Positions 11,913 to 38,186 of a DNA stretch of 64,000 nt are shown here, one piece after another. Numbering within the stretch: position 1 is the first letter of the stretch; every line of letters starts with the position of its first letter. The notes under the pieces are model-generated. The model searched no databases. It was not told where the DNA came from and was given only the letters and a program-made list of their open reading frames with translations. Origin of the DNA: Alphaproteobacteria bacterium (GTDB taxonomy: Bacteria; Pseudomonadota; Alphaproteobacteria; Micropepsales; Micropepsaceae); NCBI GenBank assembly GCA_017983635.1, contig JAGOBA010000001.1, positions 1 to 64,000 on the forward strand, given 5' to 3'. A program made the translations under genes and the position numbers.

Positions 11913-11915
11913 GGT

Positions 11916-20087: not shown

Positions 20088-20125
20088 TCGCACGCGCAGT
20101 CGAAAGACCCAATTCGAAGTGCCGC

Positions 20126-20582: not shown

Positions 20583-21824
20583 ATGGTCCGCCAATTAGAG
20601 AGACTATCGGCGTTGAAGGTTGAACGACTGACCGACGACGGCATGCACGCCGACGGCGGAGGACTCTATCTACAGATCGACGGCGGCGCCAAGAGCTGGA
20701 TTTTCCGCTTTCGGTCGCCGGTCAAAAGGTCAGAGCGCTACATGGGCCTGGGCCGCTACGGGCAGCGCACGGACGAGCTCAACCTTGCTGCAGCGCGCGG
20801 AGCGGCCGAACGTGCGCGCGCACTCTGTCGCCAGGGTATCGACCCGATTGAGCAGAGACGTGGGGCGGAGCATGGAGCTGCGGCGCCTGCCAAGCCGTCG
20901 TTCGGAGAGTTCGCGGACAGCTACATCGAGATCATGCGGCCGTCGTGGCACAACGAGAAGCACGCGGCGCAGTGGGTCTCGACTATGCGCGATCACGCAT
21001 CGTCCATTCGATCGACGCCGGTCGATCAGATCGACACCGACATGGTGCTCAACGTGCTGCGACCCATCTGGGCTGAGGTCCCGGAGACCGCGCGCCGCGT
21101 CCGGTGCCGCATCGAAGCAATACTCGATGCGGCGAAGGCGAAGCAGCACCGCACGGGAGAGAACCCCGCACGCTGGCGCGGGCACCTGCAGCATCTGCTT
21201 CCAAAGCCCAAGCGATTGACGCGTGGGCATCATGCCGCGCTCGACTATCGCGACGCTGGCGACTTCATGGTGCAGCTCCGAGCACAGTCCGGCATCGCGG
21301 CGCGTGCGCTCGAATTCTTGGTGCTGACCTGTACGCGCACTAGCGAGACACTTCTCGCGGAGTGGTCAGAGATCGACATGGAAAGTCACGTCTGGACATT
21401 GCCTCCGGTGCGCACGAAGCAGAAGCGCGAGCAGCGCATCCCGCTCTCCGCTCCCGCGTTGGCGATCGTCCAGGAGATGGCTGCGATCAAGTCCTGCGCC
21501 TTCATTTTCCCAGGGTGGAAGATGGGCGCGCCGTTCTCGAACATGGCGATGGCGAATGTGCTGCAGCGCATGGGGCGCGATAGTGTCACCGTCCACGGCT
21601 TTCGGAGCACCTTCAAGGATTGGTGTTCCGACTGCACCAACCACCCGAACGAAGTGAGCGAGATGGCGCTTGGTCACAAAGTCTCTGACAAGGTCGAAGC
21701 GGCATACCGTCGTGGCGAACTCCTTCAGAAGCGCCGGCAGCTTGCCGAAGATTGGGCTCGCTTCTGTGCGACGCCCTGGACAACGGCGACGGTCATTCCG
21801 ATCGGCGAGCGCCGCTCGATGTAG
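20583..21824 (+). CDS. int: Tyrosine recombinase (P4-type integrase)
   Basis: A 413-residue site-specific recombinase of the P4 integrase family, which inserts and excises the element at tRNA-Ser. The N-terminal DUF4102 arm-binding domain (GGLYLQIDGGAKSWIFRFR) precedes the core-binding and catalytic domains. The full catalytic set is visible: Arg in CTRTSETLL, Lys in RTKQKREQRIPLS, HxxR in HGFRSTF, His in LGHKVSD and Tyr in AAYRRGE. The start ATG is preceded by AGGAGG. It lies 168 bp inside the left attachment repeat, as expected. Confidence 0.95.
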   Translation: MVRQLERLSALKVERLTDDGMHADGGGLYLQIDGGAKSWIFRFRSPVKRSERYMGLGRYGQRTDELNLAAARGAAERARALCRQGIDPIEQRRGAEHGAAAPAKPSFGEFADSYIEIMRPSWHNEKHAAQWVSTMRDHASSIRSTPVDQIDTDMVLNVLRPIWAEVPETARRVRCRIEAILDAAKAKQHRTGENPARWRGHLQHLLPKPKRLTRGHHAALDYRDAGDFMVQLRAQSGIAARALEFLVLTCTRTSETLLAEWSEIDMESHVWTLPPVRTKQKREQRIPLSAPALAIVQEMAAIKSCAFIFPGWKMGAPFSNMAMANVLQRMGRDSVTVHGFRSTFKDWCSDCTNHPNEVSEMALGHKVSDKVEAAYRRGELLQKRRQLAEDWARFCATPWTTATVIPIGERRSM

Positions 21825-22903: not shown

Positions 22904-23236
22904 ATGGATAACCGATCACCGCACGACGCCCCACGGAACAAGGGCGCATTGCTAATATCTGCAGCCGCCGCCTCTGCGCCTTCGCCGTCGGTTGCGCTCG
23001 CCGGTCCGACCGATCGAGGATCATCCACACGGTTGACGATGTCTGTGCCTGAGTTCTGCGAGATGGTCGGGATCAGCAAAAGCACGTTCTATCTTGAGGT
23101 ACGAGAGGGTAGGATTCAGCTGCTCAAAGCCGGTGCGAAAACCCTCGTGGCCCGCACCGAACCGGCAAAATACCTTGCTGAAATGGCCGCCGCAGCTGCC
23201 TCGCGCTCACCTCGCCGACGCAAGTCCGCAGCCTGA
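22904..23236 (+). CDS. AlpA/excisionase-like helix-turn-helix protein
   Basis: A 110-residue protein with a low-complexity Ala/Ser/Pro N-terminus. A small winged-helix DNA-binding region follows, containing MSVPEFCEMVGISKSTFYLE and EVREGRIQLLKAGAKTLV. This is the pattern of AlpA/Xis-type proteins (a helix-turn-helix choosing a reading frame of DNA, followed by a wing), which direct excision and activate element genes. It sits between the integrase and the primase, as in P4-like and PICI elements. The basic C-terminus SRSPRRRKSAA may help DNA binding. Confidence 0.75.
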   Translation: MDNRSPHDAPRNKGALLISAAAASAPSPSVALAGPTDRGSSTRLTMSVPEFCEMVGISKSTFYLEVREGRIQLLKAGAKTLVARTEPAKYLAEMAAAAASRSPRRRKSAA

Positions 23237-23407: not shown

Positions 23408-23794
23408 TTGGTATCAACCCCCGATTCGCACTGCAACCCCCTATCGCCTGATCTGACCCAGCGGCTCGCCATCCTAATACCCCGCATGGCCACCAACCAC
23501 GACGGCGAGGTCGTAGCGACCGTCCGCGCGATCGGCCGCATCCTCGCGACCGCCGGTTGCGACTTTCACGACCTCTCCGCCCACGTGGCCGGCGCAATCG
23601 TCTCCGACGTGTCGGTGATGCTCGCAGAGTGCCAGGCCCGTATTGACCTCTTCAACGACAAGGAGGCACGCTTTCTACGGGACGCGGCGGCTCTCATTGC
23701 GGCTGGCCACGAGCTCAGCGACAAGCAGGCTGCCTGGGTCATGGACCTTCACCGGATAGCGGTGACGCGCTGGGACCGCGGGTGCGCGGTATGA
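23408..23794 (+). CDS. Small hypothetical protein upstream of the primase
   Basis: About 128 residues if translation begins at the TTG at 23408, which is preceded by AAGGAGG at a good distance. The frame is open further left to 23252, but that part lacks a ribosome site. The C-terminal half (EARFLRDAAALIAAGHELSD, then KQAAWVMDLHRIAVTRW) is helical and resembles small proteins found before phage primases. Its function is unknown. The stop overlaps the primase start (ATGA), so the two are translated together. Confidence 0.6.
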   Translation: MVSTPDSHCNPLSPDLTQRLAILIPRMATNHDGEVVATVRAIGRILATAGCDFHDLSAHVAGAIVSDVSVMLAECQARIDLFNDKEARFLRDAAALIAAGHELSDKQAAWVMDLHRIAVTRWDRGCAV

Positions 23795-24747
23795 CCGACC
23801 TTAAGTTCCATGACCTGGCGCTCGACCTGGGCAGACGCGCGCCGGAACTGGCCCGCATGCTCCTGGGAGAGCCAACGTCGAGCAACTCTCGGCAGTATCG
23901 TTACCGCGGCAAAGGCTCCCTCTGCATCCTCGTCGCCGGGGCCGAAGCCGGGCACTTCTTCGACCACGACCCACCCGCCGGCAGCAAAGCCCACGGCGAC
24001 GCGATCGACTTGATCGCACACGTCACTGGCTGCTCACTCCGCGAAGCCTACACGCAAGGCATCGAATTTCTGGGAGGTGTGACGAGAGAATCCACACTGC
24101 GGCCAGGTCACGATGGGGAGACACCCCGCGATCGTATTGACCGCGCGCTGAGCTGGTGGACGGAGGGGAAGTCGGCACCCGGCACGATCGTCGAGCGCTA
24201 CCTGCAAGGCCGCGGCATCACCTGCAAAATCACCAGCGACATCAAATTCCACCCCGAACTTTGGAACTCAGAGGCGCAGCGAAAGCTCCCCGCCATGGTG
24301 GCGCTGATGCGAGACATCGGAAACGACGAGGCCTGCGGGATACACCGGACATGGCTCCTGCCCGACGGCTCTGGCAAGGCGAAACTCACAACCCCGAAGA
24401 AAATGTATGGGCGCGCCAAGAACGCGACGATCAAGCTGGCCCCGGATTGGAGCATTACCGAAGGTATCGGCCTCACGGAGGGGATCGAAACTGGCCTCAG
24501 CCTCATCTCGATCGGCTGGGCTGCAGTCTGGGCCGTAGGCTCGGCAGGGGCGATGGCGCGCTTCCCAATCCTGGGTGGCGTCGAAGCGATCACCGTCTTC
24601 GCCGATCACGACAACAAAGCGACTGGGGTCCGCGCCGCCCGGACGTGTGCCAACCGGTGGCAGTCGGCCGGCCGTGAAGCGACGATCCACTATCCCGATG
24701 CGTGCGGCCACGATTGGAACGATGTGCTGAGAGGCATTGCGGCATGA
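23791..24747 (+). CDS. Toprim-domain primase
   Basis: A 318-residue DNA primase-type protein of the phage/plasmid DUF7146-Toprim group. The N-terminal region carries GKGSLCILVAG and a GDAIDLIAHVTGCSLREAY segment, as in CHC2-derived primases that have lost the zinc Cys set. The C-terminus has the Toprim Glu motif LTEGIETGLS, the Asp motif VFADHDNKATG, and a GHDWNDVLRG end. It probably lays primers for replication of the excised element. The ATG overlaps the previous stop by 4 bases, and its own stop overlaps the next start. Confidence 0.87.
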   Translation: MTDLKFHDLALDLGRRAPELARMLLGEPTSSNSRQYRYRGKGSLCILVAGAEAGHFFDHDPPAGSKAHGDAIDLIAHVTGCSLREAYTQGIEFLGGVTRESTLRPGHDGETPRDRIDRALSWWTEGKSAPGTIVERYLQGRGITCKITSDIKFHPELWNSEAQRKLPAMVALMRDIGNDEACGIHRTWLLPDGSGKAKLTTPKKMYGRAKNATIKLAPDWSITEGIGLTEGIETGLSLISIGWAAVWAVGSAGAMARFPILGGVEAITVFADHDNKATGVRAARTCANRWQSAGREATIHYPDACGHDWNDVLRGIAA

Positions 24748-25865
24748 GTACCGCGCCGGAAGATGTCATCCTGAAATTCGGGCGACGCGATCCGAAGATG
24801 TACGGCCGTCTGAAGGTCTTCACGCTTGGAGATGAACAGGCCAAGCTGGCGCGGCCCTATCTGCTCAAGGGGATCATCTACCGTGGCGACCTGATCTTCA
24901 TCACCGGCGATCCCGGGAGCGGCAAGACAACGCTCACACAGTACATCGCCCTTGCGGTGGCGCAGGGTAGATCCATTTTTGGTCGACGCGTAAAAGTCGG
25001 TCGGGTCCTATACCTCGCCTTCGAGGGGAAAGACATCTTCCTTCTCAAAATGAGTGTGCTGGAAAAACGCTTCGGCAGTTCGCGGAACATCATGTACGCG
25101 ACGCAGTCGCTTCAACTTCTGAAGGATGCACCGAACGGGCCCGACGCCAACGAACTGCTCAAGCTCATCAAAGACGAGAAGATCGACCTCGTCGTCTGCG
25201 ACACGTGGAGCAAGATGCTCGCCGGCGCCGACGACAACAAGCATGAAACGGTGAGCGCGCTGATAGGCGTCCTCGATCGAATTCGCGAGGAGGTTGGCGC
25301 CGCGGTCCTAGTGAATGCTCATCCCAGCAAGAGTGACAAGGGTGGTGTTGGCGGGAGCTTCACGGTCCAGAAGGACGCAGACGCGGTGCTCTCGGTCGAG
25401 ATCGCCGACAGCATCAGAACGGTGAACGCGGTCAAACTTCGGTTCGACAAGATCGGCCCCACATTCTCATTCAAGCTAGAGCGGGTGGTTTTGGGCACCG
25501 ACGACGACGGCGACGAGATCACCTCCGTCGACATCCAGGAGGAGTCGAATGACCCGCCCCACGGGGTCTCAAAGCCCACGAAGCTGTCCGCTTTCCAATC
25601 CATTTTCCTGAAGGATTTCGAGAATCACACGGCGATCACACGGCCGGGCCCAAATGACTGGGTTATCCCGAAGGAAGGCATGCCGCGTGTGATCGCCGTG
25701 GGGCGAAAGGAGATGGTTGCGGAACTCCAGAAGAACGGCCGCCTCGAAAGCTCCCCGGGGCAGCCGATGACCTCAAAAGACCGCACAAAACTGCGGGATA
25801 CGTTGGCAGCCCTCGAAAGCAAGGGGCGGCTCTTTTCAACTGACGCATGGATTTGGAAACCGTGA
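24744..25865 (+). CDS. RepA-like AAA ATPase (replicative helicase type)
   Basis: A 373-residue P-loop ATPase of the RSF1010 RepA/phage DnaB-like group. Walker A is ITGDPGSGKTTLTQY, and Walker B lies in IDLVVCDTWSKML. LVNAHPSKSDKGGVGGS is the usual RepA-like sensor segment. With the preceding Toprim primase it forms a two-protein replication module. The start at 24744 overlaps the primase stop (ATGA). The 3' end of the gene contains the first three copies of the ATCACACG repeat described separately, so the candidate origin begins inside this gene. Confidence 0.88.
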   Translation: MSTAPEDVILKFGRRDPKMYGRLKVFTLGDEQAKLARPYLLKGIIYRGDLIFITGDPGSGKTTLTQYIALAVAQGRSIFGRRVKVGRVLYLAFEGKDIFLLKMSVLEKRFGSSRNIMYATQSLQLLKDAPNGPDANELLKLIKDEKIDLVVCDTWSKMLAGADDNKHETVSALIGVLDRIREEVGAAVLVNAHPSKSDKGGVGGSFTVQKDADAVLSVEIADSIRTVNAVKLRFDKIGPTFSFKLERVVLGTDDDGDEITSVDIQEESNDPPHGVSKPTKLSAFQSIFLKDFENHTAITRPGPNDWVIPKEGMPRVIAVGRKEMVAELQKNGRLESSPGQPMTSKDRTKLRDTLAALESKGRLFSTDAWIWKP

Positions 25866-26031: not shown

Positions 26032-26634
26032 ATGGACGACTTCGAAACCTCGAACGCCCTCACCCGGCTGTGGCGCGCAGTGCGCTCGACGATCGGCCGA
26101 GGGCGAATCAAGCTCGTTGACGACACCAAGGCGGTGCAGAAGGCCCAGCTCGTCCTCAGTGCTAACGAGATCGTCGACAACCTGATCCGCGTCGGCGAGT
26201 ACGGGCTCGCATCAAACCCGCCGACGGATAGCGACGCGATCGTGGTCTTCATCGCTGGCGATCGAACGAAGGGCGCGATCGTCGGCACCAACCATCAAGC
26301 ATCGAGGCTCAAAAATCTCCAGCGCGGTGAAGTGGCGATCTTCGATGATCAGGGCCGCTGGATCTGGCTGAAGCGCGGATCAATCGAGATCGACGCGAAG
26401 AACACGCCGGTTGATGTGAAAAACGCGACGGTCATCACCGCGAAGGCGACGACAAAAATCACGCTCGACAGTCCGCTTGTCGAATGCACCGGACAGATCA
26501 CGTCCCAGGGGAGCATCACGTCGCAGGCTACAGTCACGGGCACGACCGACGTCGTCGGCGGGGGGAAAAGTTTGAAGACCCATGTGCATGGCGGCGTCGT
26601 CGCCGGCGGCGCCAATTCGGGACCGCCGGTATGA
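26032..26634 (+). CDS. Phage baseplate assembly protein V (Mu gp45/P2 gpV-like)
   Basis: A 200-residue protein of the gpV/gp45 spike family. An OB-fold region near residues 15-110 is followed by a repetitive beta-helix stretch (NATVITAKATTKITLDSP, then QGSITSQATVTGTTDV). The end, KTHVHGGVVAGG, has the HxH motif that binds iron at the spike tip. Such proteins pierce the host outer membrane at the end of a contractile tail. It is the first gene after the candidate origin, and its stop overlaps the hub gene start. Confidence 0.87.
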   Translation: MDDFETSNALTRLWRAVRSTIGRGRIKLVDDTKAVQKAQLVLSANEIVDNLIRVGEYGLASNPPTDSDAIVVFIAGDRTKGAIVGTNHQASRLKNLQRGEVAIFDDQGRWIWLKRGSIEIDAKNTPVDVKNATVITAKATTKITLDSPLVECTGQITSQGSITSQATVTGTTDVVGGGKSLKTHVHGGVVAGGANSGPPV

Positions 26635-27713
26635 GCGGCGGCGCGCGCAGACCACAAGTGGAGGACGGCGACCTGACGTTGACCGTCAACGGTCGGTCGA
26701 TCGCCGGTTGGACATCGGTTCGCGTGACGCGAGGGGTCGAGCGCTTCCCGAGCAGTTTCCAAATCGAGATGACCGACCGCGATCCCGGGACGCCCGTGAA
26801 CGAAGGCAATAGCTGCGAGGTGAGAATCGGAGGGGACCTTCTCGTGACTGGTTTCATCGATGTCGTCGACCGCGCCTTCGATGAACGCGGCAACGTGGTG
26901 AGCGTCACCGGCCGGTCGAAGAGCCAAGACCTGATCGACTGCTCGGCCGAGTGGCCGACGTGTCAGATCACTTCGTCGACCGCGCTGGCGATCGCGCAGA
27001 AAATCGCGGCCCCGTATGGGATCAAAGTCGCCGGCGTGGGTGATCCCGGCCGCGTCATCCCGACCTTCAATTTCGCCCTGGGCGAGACCGGCGCCGACAT
27101 CATCGAGCGAACGTTGCGCTACACCGGCAAGCTGCTACTCGATAAGCCCGACGGCTCGGTGCTCATCACCGACGTCGGGACGGCGAAGGCGGCCTCCGGC
27201 TTCACCGAAGGTCAGAACATTCAATCGGCGCGGATCACCTCGCGCGTCGATCAGCGCTACTCGGTGTACAAAATCTTTATGGTGGCGATGGACGCCTTCG
27301 AAGATGTCGGCGACGGTGGCAACTTAATCAAAACCGTCAATGACCCGAACGTCAGGCCGCAACGTCTCAAGTACTTCGTCGCTGAGTCAGGCGACAGTTC
27401 GTTCGAAGTCGCGAAGAAGCGGATTCTCTGGGAGGCCGCTCGACGCAAGGGACGGGGACAAACCGTTCGCATCGTGACCGACAGGTGGCGCGACAAGGCC
27501 GGAAAGCTTTGGGAGCCGAACACCCTGGCGCCTGTAAAGATTCCCGCTGTCAAACTGGCGAGCGCAGAGCTGCTGATCGCCGAAGTCACCTACCGGCGCG
27601 ACGCGGAGCGCGGAACCACCGCCGAACTCACATTGATGGCGCCGGATGCGTTCCGACCTGCCCCGATCATTCTCCAGCCGGCGGTCAACCTCACGGAGGT
27701 GAAACGGAACTGA
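26631..27713 (+). CDS. Phage baseplate hub protein (Mu gp44/P2 gpD-like)
   Basis: A 360-residue protein of the phage late-control/tail hub family. It begins with GDLTLTVNGRSIAGWTSVRV. The usual VTGRSKSQDLIDCSAEWPT segment follows near residue 90, and the hub fold runs to about residue 355. It forms the cell-puncturing hub with gpV. The frame is open upstream into gpV; ATG at 26631 overlaps the gpV stop by 4 bases and matches the family start. Gene order gpV then hub is the reverse of Mu, where the hub gene 44 precedes 45. Confidence 0.87.
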   Translation: MSGGARRPQVEDGDLTLTVNGRSIAGWTSVRVTRGVERFPSSFQIEMTDRDPGTPVNEGNSCEVRIGGDLLVTGFIDVVDRAFDERGNVVSVTGRSKSQDLIDCSAEWPTCQITSSTALAIAQKIAAPYGIKVAGVGDPGRVIPTFNFALGETGADIIERTLRYTGKLLLDKPDGSVLITDVGTAKAASGFTEGQNIQSARITSRVDQRYSVYKIFMVAMDAFEDVGDGGNLIKTVNDPNVRPQRLKYFVAESGDSSFEVAKKRILWEAARRKGRGQTVRIVTDRWRDKAGKLWEPNTLAPVKIPAVKLASAELLIAEVTYRRDAERGTTAELTLMAPDAFRPAPIILQPAVNLTEVKRN

Positions 27714-28402
27714 TGGCAATCCAAATCTCAATCAAGACCAACGCGAAAGAGCTTCGCAAATCGCTGTCCGACTTCGCGAAGAAACAGGTGCCGTTCGCTG
27801 TCTCGCAAGCGCTCACTGCCGTCGCGCGAGAGGTCGCCAAAGCCGAGGTCCGCGCGATCGATAAGACGTTCCCGACCGCGACGCCATTCTCGCTTGGCGG
27901 GGTCGGTGTCGCCGGCGCGACCAAGAGCAACCTGATGGCCCGCATTTTCATGCGCGAGATCGCTGCGGCGTACTTCCTGCCGTATCTCCAGGGCGGGCGG
28001 CACGCACTGTTCGGCGGACGGCGATCGATACAGGTCCCGGTCGGCCTGACGACGGACCGCTATGGAAATCTCGGTAAGGGTCGCCTCTCCAAGGTCATCG
28101 GGCGGCCGGATGTTTTCGTCGGCAAGATCACCTTCCGCAAGAGCGGCGAAACCGTTGCCGGTGTCTGGCAGCGGCCGAAGGTCGGCAAGCGGCGCGGCGG
28201 CGGTCACGGAACGAAAGGCAGCACGCGAAATCGGATCGGCGGCGTGTTCACGGGCTTGAAGTTGTTAGCGCGCTTCGAGCAGCCGCAAGAGGTCAAGCAG
28301 CGGCTGCCGTGGGCAGCTACAGCGCAGCGCGTCGTCGAGCAGGTGTGGGCGAGAGAATTTGATAAGGCGCTCGCGAAGGCGATCGCAACGGCACGGCGGT
28401 GA
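27713..28402 (+). CDS. Phage minor tail protein, gpZ-like
   Basis: A 229-residue basic protein. The N-terminus (TNAKELRKSLSDFAKKQVPF, then AVSQALTAVAREV) resembles minor tail protein Z / tail completion proteins, which sit at the head-tail junction end of the tail. The middle is Gly/Arg-rich (KVGKRRGGGHGTKGSTRNR). The start is fixed by a one-base overlap with the hub stop (TGATG). The family assignment rests on the N-terminal pattern only. Confidence 0.6.
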   Translation: MAIQISIKTNAKELRKSLSDFAKKQVPFAVSQALTAVAREVAKAEVRAIDKTFPTATPFSLGGVGVAGATKSNLMARIFMREIAAAYFLPYLQGGRHALFGGRRSIQVPVGLTTDRYGNLGKGRLSKVIGRPDVFVGKITFRKSGETVAGVWQRPKVGKRRGGGHGTKGSTRNRIGGVFTGLKLLARFEQPQEVKQRLPWAATAQRVVEQVWAREFDKALAKAIATARR

Positions 28403-28535
28403 TGGATGGTACCCCCCCCCTGTCGTGGGTCCCTCTGAACGATCGCCAGAAGTACGGGGTTTGTGGCCGCCCGGGGTTTCCAAATCGCTGAGAAATTTAG
28501 ACCCATGACATCAAGGCAAGTCTGAAGAGCGGCGC
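28403..28535. other. Short gap with a poly-C tract
   Basis: A 133-bp gap that splits the tail genes from the TerS gene. It contains a run of nine C near 28411 and a CCGCCCGGGG segment. There is no gene. Such a tract is prone to slippage, but here it lies outside coding sequence. Confidence 0.5.
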
Positions 28536-29048
28536 GTGGTAGATCGGAACGAGAGAACGATCCTCGGAAAATCGGAGCTGGCGGCGACGCTCGGCTGGGG
28601 GCGTGAGCGTCTCGATCGGCGCATCCATAGCGATCCGGATTTTCCGGTTCTGAAGCGGGCGTCTCAGGGCGCGAAATGGCAGTTCGATCTTGCCGTCGTT
28701 CGCGACTACCTGGCGGAGAACGACGACCAACACGCGGCGGCGCCGGCGGAGCTCACTCCAAGAGCCCGGCGCGAGACCGCCATGGCCATCGCGCTCGAAG
28801 ACAAGAACAGGATCGCACGCGGCGAGCTCGTCGAGCGCCAAGCCCTCCGGACCGCGCTCAGCACGTCCTTCGCGATGCTCGGCAAGAACCTCGACGGCGT
28901 CTGCGAAACGATCGGCCGACGCCTCAGCCTGACCGACGATGAGGTCGAGGTCATTCGATCGCTGATCGGCGAGTGCCGCACGTCATCGGTGGGCGAGCTC
29001 CGAGAGTACTTCAGCCCCGAGGCTCCACTAGCAAAGGACAGTGCATGA
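28536..29048 (+). CDS. Terminase small subunit (Nu1-like)
   Basis: A 170-residue protein. The N-terminal winged-helix (GKSELAATLGWGRERLDRRI, then the wing in LKRASQGAKWQFDLAVVRDY) and acidic/basic helical C-terminal part (LEDKNRIARGELVERQALR) match lambda Nu1/DUF1441-type small terminase subunits, which recognise the packaging site and recruit the large subunit. A GTG at 28536 is the start used. No large terminase gene follows or occurs anywhere in the element, which is unusual for a phage but normal for satellites that redirect a helper's packaging motor. Confidence 0.78.
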   Translation: MVDRNERTILGKSELAATLGWGRERLDRRIHSDPDFPVLKRASQGAKWQFDLAVVRDYLAENDDQHAAAPAELTPRARRETAMAIALEDKNRIARGELVERQALRTALSTSFAMLGKNLDGVCETIGRRLSLTDDEVEVIRSLIGECRTSSVGELREYFSPEAPLAKDSA

Positions 29049-29461
29049 ACCCCGAACACCTCGCCCGCGCGCTGATGCGCCGCGTCACACTGCTCGCCGC
29101 CGCAGACGAGCGCCTCGAAGAGGCGGCCCGCGCGTCCTGGAAAATTGTCAACGAGGCCGCTGCCCAGGCGGCTGGCTACGACGACAACGAGCTGCGCCAG
29201 TTCTGTCACTTCGTCGTCGCCCGCACGGTGCGCGCCCAGACCGAAGAGGCTCTCGATGAAACATGCCCGCACCTCACCGCGCTAAGGCGGGAACGCTACA
29301 TCGCGGCCACCCTGGAGCGCATGGTGCCGAAGGCAGAGAAGGCGGCGGCGCTTCTCTTTCAAACCGTGCGCGACGGTCAAAGCAGAGCCCGCGCGGAAAC
29401 GTGGGCCCGAGCGCTACGCGAGATCGAGAAGCTAGCACCGACCGCGGCCGCGGTGCACTGA
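29045..29461 (+). CDS. Hypothetical protein downstream of TerS
   Basis: A 138-residue helical, soluble protein without a family that I recognise. It contains two Cys-free helical halves, with LDETCPHLTALRRERYIAAT in the middle as the only Cys. The start at 29045 overlaps the TerS stop (ATGA), so it is coupled to packaging gene expression. A capsid-related or packaging-accessory role is possible from position alone. Confidence 0.6.
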   Translation: MNPEHLARALMRRVTLLAAADERLEEAARASWKIVNEAAAQAAGYDDNELRQFCHFVVARTVRAQTEEALDETCPHLTALRRERYIAATLERMVPKAEKAAALLFQTVRDGQSRARAETWARALREIEKLAPTAAAVH

Positions 29462-29508
29462 TCCAACGCTCCGAGCACGGCCCCCGTCGAGATGGAGGTT
29501 CACTAGAG

Positions 29509-29964
29509 ATGGCGAAGCGATTATCGATCGATGTCGAAGCATTCGCCGACGACGTCGCCAAACTCTATGTCAGAACGCATAGTATCGATGAGTTCAGGAT
29601 CCAGATCGAGCGCCTCCTCGCAGGCGATCGACGTGGCGGGATTTCAGCCGACAAAGCAGCCCGACAGGCTCGGCGTGACGAATGCCTAGCGACGCTGTGG
29701 CAGGTCGTTGCCGGCGACGCCCGCCATAAGGCGGACGCGGCGAGGCGCACGATCGAGTCGATCGAACGCTACCGCGACAGCGGCGAATTTGAGCACGATA
29801 GAACGCAGGTTTGGCCTCGCGAGGTCGGCTTCACCCGAGCGCTTATGGGCGCGATTTTGTTGACAAAGTTGCCACTCGGGCAAAGGACCGTCGAAAACGC
29901 CATCGCGCCGACTTGGATTAAGAAACGGAAAAGCAAAAGGCCTTTCGAAATTCTGTACCTGTGA
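29509..29964 (+). CDS. Hypothetical protein of the integrated element
   Basis: A 151-residue protein, basic towards the end (TWIKKRKSKRPFEILYL). It contains IDEFRIQIERLLAGDR and a helical region around RRDECLATLWQVVAGDARHK. No family is recognised. The frame is open far to the left over the previous gene. The ATG at 29509 is preceded by TGGAGG and gives a normal start. Confidence 0.6.
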   Translation: MAKRLSIDVEAFADDVAKLYVRTHSIDEFRIQIERLLAGDRRGGISADKAARQARRDECLATLWQVVAGDARHKADAARRTIESIERYRDSGEFEHDRTQVWPREVGFTRALMGAILLTKLPLGQRTVENAIAPTWIKKRKSKRPFEILYL

Positions 29965-30006
29965 TTTTCACTTTGCGACATGACCCGGTAGCTGTACGTC
30001 GCAACG

Positions 30007-30219
30007 ATGATCTTACATCGCCCCAGCCCGATCGTCGTGCGGCGCAACCTGACCATCGCGGTCGGTCGCCAGCGTGTCCGGCTCACGCCCGCTGAGGGTC
30101 TTGCCGTCTCCGAAGCGATTGCGCGCGCATCCATCCGCCGCATGTTTGAGCATGCCGGCGACGTCGACGCTTCCCCTCGGGGCGCTTTGACGAAGCCCTC
30201 ACACAAGAAGGATCGCTGA
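30007..30219 (+). CDS. Small hypothetical protein, 70 residues
   Basis: The first half is beta-rich (IVVRRNLTIAVGRQRVRLTP), followed by a helix (AEGLAVSEAIARASIRRMF). It ends in a basic tail. The pattern of a short beta-hairpin and a helix is seen in many small phage proteins of unknown role. Its stop overlaps the next start by one base (TGATG), which supports both being translated. Confidence 0.55.
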   Translation: MILHRPSPIVVRRNLTIAVGRQRVRLTPAEGLAVSEAIARASIRRMFEHAGDVDASPRGALTKPSHKKDR

Positions 30220-30632
30220 TGGCGGCAGACTGCAACGACGAGCTGGTTATCCAAAGGCTCATGACGCGTCTGAGCGACGGTCAGTCAATCTCCGCATTTG
30301 TGCCGCGGCTTGCTGCCGAGGCGAAACGTCGGTTCGCAGCGGCCGCTGCAAAAAAGGTTAAGCGCAAGGGTGGCCTAGGCGCCAAGCGGCCGGCGAGCTT
30401 CGCGCACCTCGGTAATCTGAGCTTCGACCAAAACGCACTGCACGCCGCATCGTGGGACCGAGCGATGAAGCGAGCTTCTGGCGAGCCTCCGGCGGCGTCG
30501 AGTTCGGTCGCGCGCGGTTGGGATACAGCCTTCGCGAAAGTGCCCGGCGCAGAGCACGCCCGGCGGCCGAAGTCCGCACCGCCGAGCGGGATGAAATTGA
30601 TCCAAACCACTCGGCGCGGTGTGCCCCTCTAG
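30219..30632 (+). CDS. Basic hypothetical protein of the integrated element
   Basis: 137 residues, strongly basic (AAAAAKKVKRKGGLGAKRPA). An N-terminal helix MTRLSDGQSISAFVPRLAAE may be a small DNA-binding unit, but I do not recognise the family. The start is coupled to the previous stop. The 3' end runs up to the decoration protein gene with a 24-base gap. Confidence 0.55.
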   Translation: MAADCNDELVIQRLMTRLSDGQSISAFVPRLAAEAKRRFAAAAAKKVKRKGGLGAKRPASFAHLGNLSFDQNALHAASWDRAMKRASGEPPAASSSVARGWDTAFAKVPGAEHARRPKSAPPSGMKLIQTTRRGVPL

Positions 30633-30656
30633 GCCCAAAACAGGAAGTTTCCCCGA

Positions 30657-31274
30657 ATGACGATTATCGTGAACCAATTGAATGGCGGGCTCTCGGTTCA
30701 GAGCGTGACGATCACGCTCCAGAACCTACTCGCTGGGTCGGTCCTAGGCCGTCGACTCGTCGGCGCCAGTGCCGCCGCCGTCGCCTTCAACAACACCGGT
30801 AACGGTACGCCAGGCGCGATCACTGTGGGAGGTGCGGCAAAGCTTGGCCGCTATCGGCTCACGGTGTTTGGGGTCAATCCTGCGACGTTCTCGGTGATAG
30901 ATCCCGAGGGCGTCTTTGTTGGCATCGGCACCGCGGGTGTTCCCTTCACCGGCGGTGGACTGACATTCACCTTGAGCAACGGCGGGGCCGCATTCGTCGG
31001 CGGCGACGGCTTCAGCATCACGGTGAGCGGCGGCTCGTTCAAATACCTCGCCTATCACCCCAACGCAGCAACGGGTGAACAAACGCCGGCGGGCGTCCTC
31101 CTCGCCAACACCGACGCCACCGGCGGCGACCAGGTGGCAAACGTCTTCACCAGCAGCGGCGTTTTGAATTTTGACGACCTCGTTTGGTCGGCGAATGTCC
31201 CCCGCTTGGATGACAAAGTCGCTGCACTCGCCGTGCTGAGCGCGAGGACCGGAATTTTCTTCACCAGGACCTAG
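30657..31274 (+). CDS. Phage head decoration protein (lambda gpD-like family)
   Basis: A 205-residue, beta-rich, acidic protein. The segment KLGRYRLTVFGVNPATFSVI and the following DPEGVFVGIGTAGVPFTGGG, then FVGGDGFSITVSGGSFKY, are typical of head decoration proteins, which bind the expanded capsid and stabilise it. No major capsid gene is present in the element, so the protein would have to act on another phage's capsid or be a remnant. The start at ATG 30657 follows a short gap. The identification is by pattern and could be confirmed by a structure search. Confidence 0.7.
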   Translation: MTIIVNQLNGGLSVQSVTITLQNLLAGSVLGRRLVGASAAAVAFNNTGNGTPGAITVGGAAKLGRYRLTVFGVNPATFSVIDPEGVFVGIGTAGVPFTGGGLTFTLSNGGAAFVGGDGFSITVSGGSFKYLAYHPNAATGEQTPAGVLLANTDATGGDQVANVFTSSGVLNFDDLVWSANVPRLDDKVAALAVLSARTGIFFTRT

Positions 31275-31301
31275 ACGCACACCACGAAAGGAGTCGACCC
31301 C

Positions 31302-32327
31302 GTGCTCAAACTCAACGACGAAGTGCTTGCGACGCTTGCCGCGACGAAGGCGCTGCTCGACGCCGATCAAGCCATCCAACGCAAACTCGTCGAGCGCGTT
31401 GCCGCGCGACGGGGCGTGCTTGAAGCGTTGAAACGTGAACGCGAGATCGTCGCGCAGTGTGAGGTGACGCTGTCGCGCAGCGATGACCCACCGATCAACA
31501 CGGCCGCGCGCCTGGCGACGGCGCGCACCGAAGGGCTGCGACTCGAGCAGGAGCTGGGTGAGATCGACCGCGATGTTGCGGATCTTGCCGAGACACGAAA
31601 GGCAAGCCGCCCTGAGATCGAGCGTGCAAGCATCAAATTTGCGGAGACAGAGTCCGCACTGCGAGCGTTCATCACCCGGGACCTGCAAGGAATGCTTGAG
31701 CCTTTGGCAAGGGAACTCGCGAAGGTTCTGATGCTAGGACTTGCCGTGAGTCAGGGGCTCAATGGGCAGTATCGACAAGCCTTGGTCGATACGACAATTC
31801 CGGCCCTAGACAGGCGCGACCGGCCCCTACTTGCGAATGCTCGCCTTCGCACCGCACTGGAGCCTGAACTTACTGTTGTGCAACTGGAACAGTTGTGGCG
31901 CGATGATGTCGAACTCGTCAAGCTCTCGGAGTTGTTGGCGGACTTCACGCGCACAGCACGCTCAGTCAAGGAGCAGGGCGAGCGGGTCGCTCGCGAGCGC
32001 TTCGAGGAGATACATGCCGACCCTCAGGCTAAGGCAACGTTCGAGGCGGAGCGGCGTGAAAAGCGGCGGGCCGAAGATGCCGCGCGCAAGAAGGAGTTCG
32101 GCGAGGCGCGCGAGAAGAGCCAACGCGAAGAGGAGGATCGTCTTGCTCAGATCGTTGACGCACGCAGGAGCGGCAAAATCGGCGGGACCGCGGACCCAGG
32201 AGATTTAGGTACGAAAGAACTCGCCGAGCGGCGAGCCCGCATCGCCGCCGAAGCCAAGCGCGCCGAGGCCGCACTCAACGCCCGTGTGAGCGCCGACGAG
32301 GCGAACGCCCGCGAAGTCGCAGCATAG
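31302..32327 (+). CDS. Coiled-coil protein of unknown role in the morphogenesis block
   Basis: A 341-residue protein that is nearly all helix, with long charged heptad-like stretches (residues about 20-110 and 235-341, rich in Glu, Arg, Lys and Ala). A more hydrophobic part lies at 135-160 (LAKVLMLGLAVSQGLNG). Start GTG at 31302 follows AAAGGAG. The position between decoration and DNA-circularisation genes suggests a virion or scaffold role, but nothing in the sequence proves it. Confidence 0.6.
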   Translation: MLKLNDEVLATLAATKALLDADQAIQRKLVERVAARRGVLEALKREREIVAQCEVTLSRSDDPPINTAARLATARTEGLRLEQELGEIDRDVADLAETRKASRPEIERASIKFAETESALRAFITRDLQGMLEPLARELAKVLMLGLAVSQGLNGQYRQALVDTTIPALDRRDRPLLANARLRTALEPELTVVQLEQLWRDDVELVKLSELLADFTRTARSVKEQGERVARERFEEIHADPQAKATFEAERREKRRAEDAARKKEFGEAREKSQREEEDRLAQIVDARRSGKIGGTADPGDLGTKELAERRARIAAEAKRAEAALNARVSADEANAREVAA

Positions 32328-32339
32328 CGGGCCCCCGCA

Positions 32340-33689
32340 ATGTCTTGGACCGACCGCCTGCAGCAAGCCTCCTTCCGCGGCATCCCGTTCGGTGTGCTCG
32401 CCGCCGACACGGCGGTGGGCCGCCGCACGGCGCTCCACGAATACCCCTATCGCGACAAGCCGTGGATCGAGGACATCGGCCGCTCGACGCGGAAGATCAC
32501 GTTCAGGGGCTTCCTGGTCTCGGACAGCAAGGTCTATGGCGGTGGCGATGTCATTGGCCAGCGCGATCGCTTCATCGGCGCCGCGGAGTCACCGGGCGCC
32601 GGCACGCTCGTTCATCCCACGCTTGGACGCCTCACGGTCAACGTCTCGAGCTGCCGCATCGAAGAGAAATTCGACGAGGGAAATTACTTCGAGGTCGGCC
32701 TCGAACTCCTCGAGTCTGGCGAGCGCATTTTCCCAACCGTATCAGGTGCCACCGGCGCCCTCACCGGGATCAGCGCCCTCGGCCTCGACAGCGCGGCCTC
32801 CGCCGACTTCTTGACCCGCGCCGTCGCCGATCTCAAGCTCGGCGCCAGCGTCGTCAACCAGGTCGTCTCGACGGCCACGAAATGGGCGAAGCCCGCGTTG
32901 AGCCTCGTGCGCGACGCGACGAACCTGTCGAGCCTGGCGAGCAACCTTCCCGGGGTGCTCGGCCGGTACTTCGGCGGCGCGAACGTCGGCGGCCTTGGGC
33001 TCCTGGGCTCGACCGGCGAACAGCTCGTCGACGCATCGACCTCGGTCGCCGATCTGATCAAGGCCGGGACCGAGGCCCGCACGCTCGTCCAGACGTCGAT
33101 CGACACCTTCCTCACGCTCGCCGGAGGGAACAAGCCGGCCGAGTTCGCCGCATCCTCGCAAGCCCTCGCCGCCGCCGTCCTCGGCTCCTGCGTCAACCCC
33201 GCCGACGGCGTGCGTCTTCTCGCGCGCCTCGCGGTCTCGCCGACGCCCGATCCGACGACGACCTCGCCCGTCGGCCTCGCGATGGCCGACATTCAGACCG
33301 GCTGCAACGATCTCTTCCGCCGCGCCGCCGCCGCCGCCCTTGCCCGTGCCTCGTCGACCTACCAGCCGTCGAGCTACGACGACGCGGTCCGCGTGCGCGG
33401 GCTCGTGGTCGATGTGCTCGATGCCGAGATCGCGGCCGCCGGCGACCAGGGCGAGGACCGGAGCTTCTCCGCGCTGCGCACGTTGCGGCAGTCGGTGGTC
33501 GACGACATCACAGAACGGGGCGCGACGCTCGCCCCCATCAAGACGTTCAAGCTCCCATCCGCATTGCCCTCGCTGTACCTCGCGAACCGCCTCTATCGCG
33601 ATCCGACGCGGGCAACTCAGATCGAGCTTCAATCGAAAACGAAACATCCCTTGTTCTGCCCGCCGAAATTCCGCGCGTTGGCGAAATAG
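32340..33689 (+). CDS. Phage DNA-circularisation/tail protein (Mu gp43-like)
   Basis: A 449-residue protein with a clear DNA_circ_N domain at the N-terminus: WTDRLQQASFRGIPFGVLA, then GRRTALHEYPYRDKPWIEDI and GRSTRKITFRGFLV. In Mu-like phages this protein is encoded between the tape measure and the hub gene and belongs to the tail baseplate region. The C-terminal part is Ala-rich and helical. Start ATG 32340 lies 12 bases after the coiled-coil gene. Confidence 0.87.
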   Translation: MSWTDRLQQASFRGIPFGVLAADTAVGRRTALHEYPYRDKPWIEDIGRSTRKITFRGFLVSDSKVYGGGDVIGQRDRFIGAAESPGAGTLVHPTLGRLTVNVSSCRIEEKFDEGNYFEVGLELLESGERIFPTVSGATGALTGISALGLDSAASADFLTRAVADLKLGASVVNQVVSTATKWAKPALSLVRDATNLSSLASNLPGVLGRYFGGANVGGLGLLGSTGEQLVDASTSVADLIKAGTEARTLVQTSIDTFLTLAGGNKPAEFAASSQALAAAVLGSCVNPADGVRLLARLAVSPTPDPTTTSPVGLAMADIQTGCNDLFRRAAAAALARASSTYQPSSYDDAVRVRGLVVDVLDAEIAAAGDQGEDRSFSALRTLRQSVVDDITERGATLAPIKTFKLPSALPSLYLANRLYRDPTRATQIELQSKTKHPLFCPPKFRALAK

Positions 33690-33707
33690 CACCCGAAGGA
33701 GACATGC

Positions 33708-33995
33708 GTGCCTCAACTCATGAAGACGATCGTGCTCGAAGAGCCGCTCGAATGGAATGGTCAAACGTACACTGAGCTCACGCTGAAGGAGCTCACCGCC
33801 GGTCAGCTGCAAGAAGCTCTCAACGGCGAAACGAAAAACCGTGTCGAGCAAACGATGAAATTCATCTCGCTCTCGACTGGCCTTCCGGCCGTCGCGCTGA
33901 AAGGCTTGCTCGCGCGCGACTACAGCCGGGCTCAGGACTTCATCTTGGATTTTCTATCCGCCCCGCTGGATGGCGGGGCATCGTCGCCGGCATAG
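33708..33995 (+). CDS. Phage tail assembly chaperone (Mu gp41/P2 gpE'-like)
   Basis: A 95-residue protein. EEPLEWNGQTYTELTLKELT and the following GQLQEALNGETKNRVEQTMK match the phage tail assembly chaperones encoded just before the tape measure. The GTG at 33708 follows AAGGAGA; ATG at 33720 is a possible alternative start. The frame ends at TAG 33993-33995. Sequence immediately beyond encodes a GpE-like domain in the -1 frame, as in P2, so a longer frameshifted product is likely. Confidence 0.82.
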   Translation: MPQLMKTIVLEEPLEWNGQTYTELTLKELTAGQLQEALNGETKNRVEQTMKFISLSTGLPAVALKGLLARDYSRAQDFILDFLSAPLDGGASSPA

Positions 33996-34129
33996 CCCGG
34001 TTCTATCACTGGCCGCCGTCGGAGATTTGGGCGCTCACCTGGCGCGAGATTTTCGAATGGAACGACGCGGCCGTTGAGATCATGACCGCCCGGCCGGACA
34101 GCACCGGGGCGCAGGCCGAACAGGAGTAA
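33950..34129 (+). CDS. GpE-like extension of the tail chaperone, read by probable -1 frameshift
   Basis: In the -1 frame relative to the chaperone, residues GIARFYHWPPSEIWALTWRE and the following IFEWNDAAVEIM match the P2 GpE family (RFyHWpp ... eW). No ATG, GTG or TTG starts this frame between the preceding open sequence and the conserved motif, so translation must come from a shift. A candidate slip site is the T tetramer at 33950-33953 (GAT TTT CTA in the zero frame); I cannot prove the exact place. The stop at 34127-34129 lies 6 bases before the tape-measure start. Confidence 0.7.
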   Translation, partial: FSIRPAGWRGIVAGIARFYHWPPSEIWALTWREIFEWNDAAVEIMTARPDSTGAQAEQE

Positions 34130-34135
34130 CTCGCT

Positions 34136-35335
34136 ATGTCAGCAGGCAAGCAGTTCGCGATCGAGGTCACAGCGAAAGACATGGTCACGCCGGTCATCGG
34201 CAAGGTCGACAAGGCCCTGTCGCGACTCGAAGGCGGCGCATTGAAGCGCACGAACACCGCGCTGGGCGATGTGGCCAACGCGTCCCGGCTCAGCGGTGTC
34301 GAGAAGGGCTTTCGTAGCATCGGCGACAGCGTCATCGGCATCGGCGACGCCTTGCTCGGCCTGATGCCTGGCCTCGGCGCTCTGACGGCCGCCGGCGCCG
34401 GTGCTGGCATCGTCAACCTGGGTGTTCAGTTCGCGAGCACCGGCGCAGAGATCGACCGCTCCGCTCGCCTCTTCGACATTGGCACGGACAAGCTCCAAGA
34501 GCTGCGCGGGGCGATGACACTCGCCGGCGGCGCGGCGTCCGACTTCGACAACGCCTGGGTCGGTCTCTCCGACGCACTCGAGGGCGCCAAGTTCGGCCGC
34601 AACATCCAAGCGGTCATGATGCTCTCGAAGATTGGCCTTCGAGCGCCCGGCCGGAACGAAGCGATCGACCAGGAGAAATACCTCGCGGGCATTGCGCGCG
34701 CGCTGCCCCGATACAACGCCGCGTCGCAACGCATCATCGCGAGCGCGCTCGGTGTGACCAGCGCGCTGCCGTTGCTCAATCAGGGTCCCGATCGGGTCGC
34801 CGCACTTCGAGTGCAAGCGCGGAAATCAAACGTCGTGATGAGCGGCGCCGACATCGCAAGCGGCAAGGCGTCCCAAAGCTCGCTCAGCCGTCTCGGTCTG
34901 GCCGCAAAAGGCGCCGCCAACAAGATCGGCTCCGCGATACCGCTCGGCACCGCCGCCGATGCAATATCGAGCCTTCTTGAGTTCATCGGTGGCGACAGCG
35001 AGAAATTTTCAGCGCTGGCCAATGGCACGGCGCCGAAGGTGTCCAATCGCCCGGTCGTTCCGAAGCCCATGATACCGCGCATTCGGTCGGGACCGGTGAG
35101 CCCGGGGGCTGACGCCGCGAAGCCGTGGTACGAGCAGCGCAGGCTCATCGACACGCCGGCCGACGAGCTCCGCGCGATCGGCCGCAGCAATCCGATTGCG
35201 ATCTCTGACTCGACGAGCACGGTCCGGATCATCCTGGAGGGCGCGCCACGCGGGACGAAAGTGCTTACGGATAGCGCTCGCGGATCCCGCGTGATCGTTC
35301 AGCAGAAGCACTTCATGGAGGGTGACAGCCCTTAG
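34136..35335 (+). CDS. Phage tail tape measure protein, unusually short
   Basis: A 399-residue protein positioned directly after the tail chaperone, as tape-measure proteins always are. The N-terminus FAIEVTAKDMVTPVIGKVDK is the usual coiled start. A hydrophobic Gly/Ala stretch (LLGLMPGLGALTAAGAGAGI) is at about 75-100, and the C-terminus is a globular tail-tip-like region. Tape-measure proteins of contractile tails usually exceed 600 residues; because length sets tail length, this one would specify a short tail. Start ATG 34136 follows a short gap. Confidence 0.78.
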   Translation: MSAGKQFAIEVTAKDMVTPVIGKVDKALSRLEGGALKRTNTALGDVANASRLSGVEKGFRSIGDSVIGIGDALLGLMPGLGALTAAGAGAGIVNLGVQFASTGAEIDRSARLFDIGTDKLQELRGAMTLAGGAASDFDNAWVGLSDALEGAKFGRNIQAVMMLSKIGLRAPGRNEAIDQEKYLAGIARALPRYNAASQRIIASALGVTSALPLLNQGPDRVAALRVQARKSNVVMSGADIASGKASQSSLSRLGLAAKGAANKIGSAIPLGTAADAISSLLEFIGGDSEKFSALANGTAPKVSNRPVVPKPMIPRIRSGPVSPGADAAKPWYEQRRLIDTPADELRAIGRSNPIAISDSTSTVRIILEGAPRGTKVLTDSARGSRVIVQQKHFMEGDSP

Positions 35336-35371: not shown

Positions 35372-36013
35372 GTGCGCAGCGGCGACGGGCCGGGGGTTTT
35401 GTCCTCCCTCCGGCCCGTCACCCATTCTGAGCCTCCCTCTTCCTTTGACGTATTCGAGTCGGGTTTGAACTTGAAAAGGAAGACGCCCTCCCTTCCCGGC
35501 CGCGACGGCAACCCTCTGGCGCTTGAGGTCGCACGTGGCCATGAGCGCACCGGCAAATCTGAAGCGGTCGTTCGGAACCTTCGCGAGCACCCGATCGATA
35601 CTCTCCTCGAGCGCGGCACGATCGAAGCGCACCATCACCAAGCAGCCGAACGATTCATGGGTGATTGGCAGCTTGCCCAAGTAGGCTCCCCGCGGTCGAT
35701 GCCCCTAGAGGCCCGCGTCGATGGCGCCCGCGGTGGTGATCTCACGGAAAGCCAAGCCGACGCGATCGGTCGACTCAAGCGAACGCTCAACTACCTCGGG
35801 CCGGTCGATAAGCTGATCGTCACCGCGCTTGTCGTCGATCGCGCCAACCTGACGACGATCGGCGCCCTCATGTATGAGCGCGGGTTTCGTTGGCCGGAGA
35901 AGCGCTATGCCGGACCACGGCTTTGCGAAGCGCTTGACGTGTTGGCGCAGTGCTATGGACTGGCGACTCGCCCTGCAGCTGCTCGCCCGGTCCAGGACCG
36001 CCCGCCGGTGTGA
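35372..36013 (+). CDS. DUF6456-like protein
   Basis: About 213 residues. The central and C-terminal parts (DTLLERGTIEAHHHQAAERF, MYERGFRWPEKRYAGPRLCE, then ALDVLAQCYGL) resemble the alphaproteobacterial DUF6456 pattern, which ends in a similar helix. The start is uncertain. GTG at 35372 lies inside a strong hairpin and is doubtful; TTG at 35465 would remove the unconserved N-terminus. The function is unknown; the family has been linked to regulatory proteins, but I have no specific evidence here. Confidence 0.5.
   Translation: MRSGDGPGVLSSLRPVTHSEPPSSFDVFESGLNLKRKTPSLPGRDGNPLALEVARGHERTGKSEAVVRNLREHPIDTLLERGTIEAHHHQAAERFMGDWQLAQVGSPRSMPLEARVDGARGGDLTESQADAIGRLKRTLNYLGPVDKLIVTALVVDRANLTTIGALMYERGFRWPEKRYAGPRLCEALDVLAQCYGLATRPAAARPVQDRPPV
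35381..35422. other. Inverted repeat after the tape-measure gene
   Basis: GACGGGCCGG (35384-35393) and CCGGCCCGTC (35410-35419) form a perfect 10-bp stem, extended to 13 bp with one G-U wobble, around a 16-base loop. No clear T run follows. It may be a weak terminator for the morphogenesis genes or an RNA structure. Confidence 0.5.
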
Positions 36014-36530: not shown

Positions 36531-37499
36531 TTGCCACCTGTTCCGTACACCAAGCCATTCGTCAATGTCGTCGGTCAGCTAGAGTTGCTGAAGTCGCGAG
36601 GCATGGTTGTCTCAGATGAAGCACTTGCACGCGAATGCCTCGAACGCGTTGGATACTACCGCTTGAGCGGCTACTGGTATCCGTTCCGCGCGTCCCGAAC
36701 AGCCATTGTGGGTGGCAGAGAGGTCCGATGTATTGAAGACACTTTTCGGCCTGGAACGGAGTTTCGCCATGCGATGGAGTTGTACGTTTTTGACAAGCAA
36801 CTCCGCATGCTGTTCCTCGATGCGATTGAGCGGATCGAGGTCGCAATTCGGGTAGACATCGCCCTCCTACTAGGGCAGCGAAACCCGATCGCCCATCGAA
36901 GTGCGGATCAGCTTCACGGCAATTTCACTCGACTGAGCACGCGCACTGGCAAGGTGGGACACGCAGATTGGCTGCGGCGGCTAGATGATCAGATGGCGCG
37001 ATCAAAGGATGATTTTGTCGCTCATTTCAAGCGAACGTACTCCACGCCGTTGCCAATCTGGATTGCCATTGAACTTTGGGATTTTGGGATGCTCGCAACG
37101 TTCTTCGCGGGAATGAAATTCCTCGATCGGACATTGATCGCTCAGAAATATGGTCTGCGGTACGAGGTGCTGGAGAGCTGGCTCTACACTCTAAACCACA
37201 TCCGAAATATCTGCGCCCACCACAGCCGTCTCTGGAATCGTACGCTGTGGGCGCAACCGAAATGGACGAAGAACGGGGAAGTTCCAAGCCTCGATCATCT
37301 CGTAGGCGATACGCAGCGGCAAAGTCGCATGTATGCGGCCGCCGCGATATCCCAGTTCCTGTTGGGCACTGTGAATCCGCAAACGCAGTGGTCGTCGCGA
37401 TTCCGCAATCATGTCGCAACTCTACCCGTCGCCCCGGGGGTGTCTGTTTCTCAGATGGGAATTCCGGCAAATTGGACCAGCCTCGCACTGTGGACGTAG
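36531..37499 (+). CDS. Abi family protein (Abi_2, AbiD/AbiF-like)
   Basis: A 322-residue abortive-infection protein of the Abi_2 family. The segments FVNVVGQLELLKSRGMVVSD, RVGYYRLSGYWYPFR and FDKQLRMLFLDAIERIEVAI are typical. The conserved RNICAHHSRLWNR gives the HEPN-like Arg-x4-His. Such proteins stop phage growth by killing or arresting the infected cell. The TTG at 36531 is the start that fits; no ATG lies nearby. It is cargo of the integrated element and is read in the same direction as the SRAP gene 6 bases downstream. Confidence 0.85.
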   Translation: MPPVPYTKPFVNVVGQLELLKSRGMVVSDEALARECLERVGYYRLSGYWYPFRASRTAIVGGREVRCIEDTFRPGTEFRHAMELYVFDKQLRMLFLDAIERIEVAIRVDIALLLGQRNPIAHRSADQLHGNFTRLSTRTGKVGHADWLRRLDDQMARSKDDFVAHFKRTYSTPLPIWIAIELWDFGMLATFFAGMKFLDRTLIAQKYGLRYEVLESWLYTLNHIRNICAHHSRLWNRTLWAQPKWTKNGEVPSLDHLVGDTQRQSRMYAAAAISQFLLGTVNPQTQWSSRFRNHVATLPVAPGVSVSQMGIPANWTSLALWT

Positions 37500-37505: not shown

Positions 37506-38186
37506 ATGTGCGGCCGCTTCACCCAGACCTTCACCTATGCCGAGCTGCACGCCTACTTCGACTTCTTCGGCAAACCGCTCGCCGTGCCACCGACGAACCT
37601 CGAACCGAAGTGGCATGTCCGACCGACGGACTCGATTTGGGTCGTGACGCACGGGGATGACGGCTTCAAACTTGAGCACATGCGCTGGGGCCTCGCGCCG
37701 TTCTGGTGGAAGAAGCCGCTCAAGGAACTCCCCGCGACGTTCAACGCGCGCGCCGAAACGGTCGATACGAAGCCGATGTTCCGGGAGGCCTTCAAGCGCC
37801 GGCGGTGCCTCATCCCAGCGTCGGGCTATTACGAGTGGCAGGACACGCCGACTGGCAAGCAGCCTTGGTTCTTCTCGCCCGCGTCGGCGCCGCTCTTCCT
37901 GATCGCCGCCCTCTGGGAAACGAGGAAAGACCCCGAGCCGCCGGGCGACACCGTTCGATCGACGACGATGATCATCACTGAGCCGAACGCCTTCACTGCC
38001 CGCTATCACGATCGTATGCCGGTTCTGCTCGATCGGGGCGACGTTCTGCCATGGCTCACGGAAGGCGGCGCGGGCCTGTTGCGGCCGGCGCCCGATGAGG
38101 TGATGCGCGTTTGGCCGGTGGCCCGCACGGTGAATTCGTCGAAGGCGCCGGACAGCCCGGAGCTTGTCCGCCCGATCGAGCTCTAG
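37506..38186 (+). CDS. SRAP-family DNA-protein crosslink protein (YedK/HMCES-like)
   Basis: A 226-residue SOS response-associated peptidase-family protein that covalently traps abasic sites in single-stranded DNA. The catalytic Cys2 (MCGRFTQ), Asn80 (FNARAET), Glu110 (SGYYEWQ) and His168 (YHDRMPV) are all present. The initiator Met must be removed to expose Cys2. It lies 6 bases after the Abi gene, so both are probably cotranscribed. SRAP genes are frequent in phages and islands, possibly to protect their replicating single strands. Confidence 0.93.
   Translation: MCGRFTQTFTYAELHAYFDFFGKPLAVPPTNLEPKWHVRPTDSIWVVTHGDDGFKLEHMRWGLAPFWWKKPLKELPATFNARAETVDTKPMFREAFKRRRCLIPASGYYEWQDTPTGKQPWFFSPASAPLFLIAALWETRKDPEPPGDTVRSTTMIITEPNAFTARYHDRMPVLLDRGDVLPWLTEGGAGLLRPAPDEVMRVWPVARTVNSSKAPDSPELVRPIEL

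Follow-up and report, generated by a model that had tools for sequence, protein, structure and literature searches.

A candidate phage satellite carrying its own tail-initiation genes in a Micropepsaceae chromosome

The first 64,000 nucleotides of contig JAGOBA010000001.1, from an alphaproteobacterium of the family Micropepsaceae (GenBank assembly GCA_017983635.1; the whole stretch is referred to as the window), harbour a discrete mobile element of ~20.2 kb in the bacterial chromosome (20400–40574), which exceeds the span (26032–35335) given in a preliminary description made without database searches. We think it likely that this element is an integrative phage satellite making chimeric tails. 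Since it combines a tail core and a small terminase subunit (TerS) with no capsid, packaging motor, sheath or tube, it would most likely spread through hybrid tails that draw on another phage's parts. Its integration, replication and gene content are established from the DNA itself.

Element ends, tail core and missing modules

The element is bounded by a 15-bp direct repeat, TTGGCGGAGCCGGAG, whose left copy (attL, 20400–20414) matches the right copy (attR, 40560–40574) exactly; two such matches arose in none of 100 dinucleotide shuffles. The right copy coincides with the 3' end of a tRNA-Ser(gct) gene (40561–40654, minus strand), and a tyrosine integrase gene sits immediately inside the left copy (20583–21824, plus strand; Pfam Phage_int_M 2.1e-26, Arm-DNA-bind_3 1.5e-17 and Phage_integrase 1.9e-9). 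In the same-genus genome G010 (locus L143), DNA matching the window up to 5486 adjoins tRNA-Ser directly, without the element and without ~15 kb more on its left, which marks the tRNA-Ser site as a hot spot.

The tail, packaging and decoration genes named in the preliminary description were all recovered through Pfam and PHROG matches, in intact frames on the plus strand. They encode a tail spike resembling gpV and Mu gp45, with an apex motif (26032–26634; Phage_Mu_Gp45 3.6e-19, Phage_spike and Apex), a Mu gp44/P-like baseplate hub present in one copy in the host genome (26631–27713; PHROG 177, 2.8e-103), a Z-like minor tail protein (27713–28402; PHROG 1924, 2.6e-43), TerS (28536–29048; PHROG 57, 9.9e-16, and PHROG 141, 1.2e-9), a lambda gpD-like capsid decoration protein (30657–31274; Pfam HDPD 1.5e-14, PHROG 49 1.1e-9), a gp43-like DNA circularisation/baseplate protein (32340–33689; DNA_circ_N 5.6e-29, PHROG 184 1.9e-78), a tail assembly chaperone (TAC, 33720–33995; Phage_TAC_7 2.4e-14, PHROG 166 6.8e-14) and a tape measure protein (TMP, 34136–35335; PHROG 2276, 1.9e-16). 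Operon-like overlaps link gpV to the hub, the hub to Z, and TerS to the open reading frame (ORF) at 29045; the starts of the hub (26631), Z (27713) and the chaperone (33720) are corrected ones.

Alignment of the TMP with phage tape measures showed that ~270 N-terminal residues and the conserved C-terminal motif are kept while the middle is shorter, and at 399 aa the protein is smaller than 123 of its 124 phage homologues (median 624 aa), the sole shorter one being a 110-aa ORF.

The modules described as missing are indeed missing. A PHROG and Pfam scan that covered both strands took in 89 further ORFs of the element and found no family of large terminase (TerL), portal, protease, capsid, sheath, tube, baseplate J/I (wedge), fibre or lysis protein among them; head or tail genes hidden in other frames were rejected on the same scan.

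Fold and profile checks had been proposed for the unassigned genes. The small proteins at 29045–29461 and 29509–29964 and two small overlapping ORFs of 70 and 137 aa (30007–30632), all on the plus strand, have no family match in the Pfam and PHROG scans. The 341-aa protein at 31302–32327 (plus strand) likewise matches no family, and its AlphaFold model, built on five sequences in the alignment (mean predicted local distance difference test score, pLDDT, 69.9), consists of helices throughout, so that we rejected it as a disguised capsid or tube and describe it as a coiled-coil protein. Its gene directly follows that of the decoration protein, the place expected of a capsid gene, and the lambda capsid protein gpE is of similar length; that it serves as a capsid-size redirector or scaffold is a guess.

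Gene order and the defective-prophage explanation

Full-length phages on viral contigs keep their genes for HDPD, chaperone, TMP, gp43, hub and gpV in one group with that order, and Komagataeibacter phage phiKM1 is an annotated example of this canonical tail order. The window runs gpV–hub–Z–TerS–HDPD–coiled coil–gp43–chaperone–TMP. Our survey of viral contigs (208 hub proteins in 64 clusters) yielded ~230 hub loci, ~220 of them not flagged as leaving the canonical order, with the proviso that short contigs were not fully judgeable and some contigs were fetched twice. The window order was found in none of the hub matches with fetched surroundings in the family, class and phylum samples. Complete phages that share this hub (among them phiKM1 and the IMG/VR loci L147 and L192) have homologous hub, gp43, gpV, TMP and chaperone genes, and many also HDPD; unlike the window element, they possess head and tail modules that are complete and canonically ordered, and span ~40–55 kb. 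The order had been described as different from that of Mu; related full-length phages run chaperone–TMP–gp43–hub–gpV, whereas the window puts gpV and the hub first. Full-length prophages with the window's order and the missing genes in place, named beforehand as the finding that would count against a satellite, were looked for and none was found.

The flagged viral loci L045, L167, L200 and L208 carry a sheath or J/I and were set aside as rearranged phages rather than satellites. In L200 (4893–13771), a phage contig, gp43 lies ahead of the tape measure, a rare swap in an otherwise fixed order.

The main rival explanation is a defective prophage, the decaying remnant of a full phage from which deletion and rearrangement removed the head, sheath, tube and lysis genes. 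In its favour, the structural genes all find relatives within a single type of complete phage, where HDPD, TAC, TMP, gp43, hub and gpV stand together. Decay is harder to reconcile with a gene order that is scrambled relative to canonical loci and yet keeps every frame intact with tight operon overlaps, with element ends and integration and replication genes that are likewise intact, and with a tape measure shortened internally while both of its ends are kept. We regard a remnant as unlikely, a judgement to which the small loci described below also contribute on both sides.

Small hub-bearing loci and the search for relatives

Elements with the same gaps had been proposed as support for a satellite, and we found six small loci that leave the canonical order (L180, L183, L198, L204, L209 and L244), in none of which a sheath, tube or capsid was detected with the queries used. 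Integrase genes occur in all but L198. The 10.4-kb L180 carries an integrase, an AlpA-like protein, a DnaD-like helicase loader, an AAA_25 helicase, hub, gpV, a 510-aa TMP and a coiled-coil protein, and the 15-kb L204 carries AlpA, an anti-repressor, a coiled-coil protein, a 671-aa TMP, hub, gpV and an integrase. L244 (10.1 kb) has an integrase, a replication initiator, a coiled-coil protein, a hub and a TerS of PHROG 57; L209 (14.8 kb) has a replication initiator, a gp48/I-like protein, a fibre, a hub, an integrase and a TerS-like protein, of which the last three types of gene also make up L183 (4.6 kb). L198 carries a coiled-coil protein, a 524-aa TMP, gp43, hub and gpV. The TMPs of L198 and L180 lie near the lower tenth of phage lengths, and that of L204 is not short.

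We placed 70 hubs on a tree, in which those from five of the six loci and from the window fall at six separate places and well-supported branches force at least five changes; on this phylogeny, hub genes were therefore captured independently, at least five times. An integrase family is common to L183, L209 and L204 (51–59% identity). These integrases (949–2028, 11083–12195 and 11488–12717, respectively) adjoin hubs that come from different phage clades, as would be seen were a single satellite lineage to exchange its tail hubs. The coiled-coil proteins of L204 (6692–7786) and L244 (7444–8166), encoded beside the tail genes, are related, with 25% identity across a stretch of 228 residues (E 1.2e-5), and the L204 copy had no match among phage records. 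A single coiled-coil family for all members was rejected, as this is the only convincing pair and the others are marginal.

The independent small elements with overlapping content argue against a decaying remnant. In favour of one, the window hub lies on a long branch of the hub tree, and L198 retains one contiguous block of TMP–gp43–hub–gpV, as after a simple deletion.

Further points weigh against a satellite. No close relative of the window element was found: there was no sister via TerS, the decoration protein, the helicase or gp43 on viral contigs, or via gp43 or the hub on genome contigs, and sister satellites sought via the L183 integrase yielded distant integrases only. The gene sets of the six loci and the window overlap, none of the six having the window's full set, and the coiled-coil proteins are weakly alike across members. 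All six loci were located via the hub, whose presence is thus by selection, so that the information lies in the gaps and in the genes that come with the hub; and because several of the loci are on contigs ending close by, absence is firm for the window only and fair for L204. Lastly, no helper was found: the host genome has no lambda-type TerL (GpA) and no sheath match, and a helper would need an outside origin.

Candidates that we examined and discarded include the neighbourhoods of helicase homologues (genomes G494 and G154) and of homologues of the decoration protein (G014, G058 and G037), which belong to lambda-like prophages or to islands of other kinds. The odd loci seen in G251, G257, G345 and G559 are phage-like, with gp43–hub–gpV order or cargo insertions, and are not satellites.

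On balance, the suggestion of a satellite that takes capsid, motor and tube from a helper and provides ruler, spike and packaging specificity itself is strengthened by the defined ends, the gene gaps, the failure to find a full prophage of the same order and the small look-alike loci; it is supported rather than proven, as its function is something we infer. The look-alikes bear out the proposed conserved set in a looser form, with independently captured hubs and exact gene sets that differ.

Known satellites, a proposed mechanism and accessory genes

PLE11, a phage-inducible chromosomal island-like element (PLE) of Vibrio cholerae, encodes a TMP, a chaperone and a hub, and its TMP and hub enter tails that are otherwise built by the helper (PMC12987554, Nature, March 2026). 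PLE11 tails are 10 nm shorter, and deletion of tmp lowers transduction by ~99.9% (PMC12987554). The window element is similarly integrated, with its own TMP and TAC genes, as in PLEs generally, a hub, as in some PLE variants, and a short tape measure; PLE11 borrows tube and sheath, as the window element would. It differs in its host and in its Mu-like/lambda-like donor phage, and adds a spike, gp43, Z, TerS and a decoration protein. PLEs carry a large serine recombinase; the window element has a tyrosine integrase and a tRNA-Ser att site and is therefore not a PLE, although by analogy its tail module probably works like theirs. With the PLE11 set of TMP, chaperone and hub joined by these additional genes, a chimeric-tail satellite that redirects packaging is the best explanation.

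The front half of the element resembles a phage-inducible chromosomal island (PICI). Like PICIs, it has an integrase, an AlpA/Cox-like protein, primase and helicase, TerS, defence cargo and a size in the satellite range, although the AlpA-like match is weak. The relevant genes, all on the plus strand, encode an AlpA/Cox-like helix-turn-helix protein, a putative excisionase or regulator (22904–23236; HTH_17 1.7e-4, below the Pfam cut-off; Cox-like excisionase PHROG 575, 1.1e-4), a primase with DUF7146 and Toprim_3 domains (23782–24747; 2e-29 and 3.5e-18; DNA primase PHROG 510, 8e-43) and a RepA/KaiC-like replicative helicase (24702–25865; AAA_25 2.1e-31; helicase/primase PHROGs). Classical PICIs have no tail structural genes, so that the tail and decoration genes set the element apart from them. 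Capsid-forming PICIs (cf-PICIs) and the Streptomyces satellites Mulch and Flayer (PMC10690885) likewise supply part of the virion, but their contribution is capsid and TerL (PMC10690885), while the window element supplies a tail core; lacking the major capsid, portal, protease and TerL of a cf-PICI in the scanned ORFs, it is not one, although putative tmp genes are listed for some cf-PICIs (PMC12987554). The P4-like hallmarks Sid, Psu, delta and alpha primase gave no Pfam or PHROG match in the element ORFs scanned, and it is accordingly not P4-like either. A complete prophage would show canonically ordered modules for head, motor, sheath, tube and lysis, and a tailocin would have sheath, tube, wedge and fibre genes alongside lysis genes; the element has neither set.

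For helper use, packaging and tail assembly we infer the following course. The helper would be a phage that combines a lambda-like head with a contractile tail of the Mu type; upon its infection the element would replicate and the element's TerS would steer the helper TerL onto element DNA. The hub, spike and short tape measure would nucleate tails, to be completed by the tube, sheath, wedges and fibres of the helper, and the element's decoration protein would cover the helper capsid. The resulting tails would be shorter than the helper's own, by ~30 nm if a tape measure spans roughly 0.15 nm per residue and that of the helper has the median length of 624 aa. By exchanging hub and tape measure, the element may also escape entry exclusion or defences directed at tails, and may deprive the helper of tails.

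To our knowledge, the first demonstration of chimeric satellite tails dates from 2026 and concerns Vibrio PLEs alone, the long-standing earlier view being that satellites use helper tails unaltered. If elements unrelated to PLEs bring their own hub, spike and tape measure, and if hub capture took place on at least five occasions, tail rewriting would be a general route of phage parasitism, and chimeric-tail systems would become testable outside a pathogen, with the short tape measure directly predicting particle shape. We give an even chance to the broader proposition that satellites generally and repeatedly resort to capturing a tail-initiation core (a hub, often with spike and TMP) from helpers, a strategy that would have arisen many times outside PLEs. 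The window element would then be a near-complete version controlling both ends of assembly, with TerS and HDPD governing packaging and capsid decoration while hub, spike and TMP determine how tails start and how long they become.

Downstream of the TMP gene lie, on the plus strand, genes for a DUF6456 protein (35372–36013; Pfam 4.4e-8), an AbiD/Abi_2 abortive-infection protein as defence cargo (36531–37499; Abi_2 5.3e-54, PADLOC AbiD 1.1e-62) and, also as cargo, an SRAP/HMCES-like protein (37506–38186; Pfam SRAP 3.6e-57). The presence of AbiD within the same element lends some weight to a phage-interference island, in which the short TMP, hub, spike and chaperone would be dominant-negative decoys that poison the tail assembly of incoming phages while the element itself stays unpackaged, and tail assembly is a known target of defence (Tai, PMC11364771; Rta, PMC12987554). 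We nevertheless consider such an island improbable: TerS, the decoration protein, the integrase and the replication genes would be superfluous for interference, Rta is an 80-aa inhibitor rather than a tail set (PMC12987554), and interference would follow from a satellite as well. A particle device, to which the presence of TerS and tail proteins outside any complete phage might also point, is hardly credible, as a tailocin would lack sheath, tube, J/I, fibre and lysis genes in the element and any sheath match genome-wide, and a gene transfer agent (GTA) would lack capsid, portal and TerL.

At the right end of the element are an HNH-like ORF (39657–40133, minus strand) and a small ribbon-helix-helix-like ORF (40267–40428, plus strand); one HNH match and Arc-like repressor matches, not assigned to a named ORF, came from scanning every ORF. 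To the left, ~15 kb of the window between a TonB-receptor-like gene and the element (5487–20399) are not found at the G010 tRNA-Ser site. They contain cbb3-oxidase-operon-like genes and two minus-strand genes of no assigned identity (18105–20150), and may be either another island at this hot spot or the product of a rearrangement.

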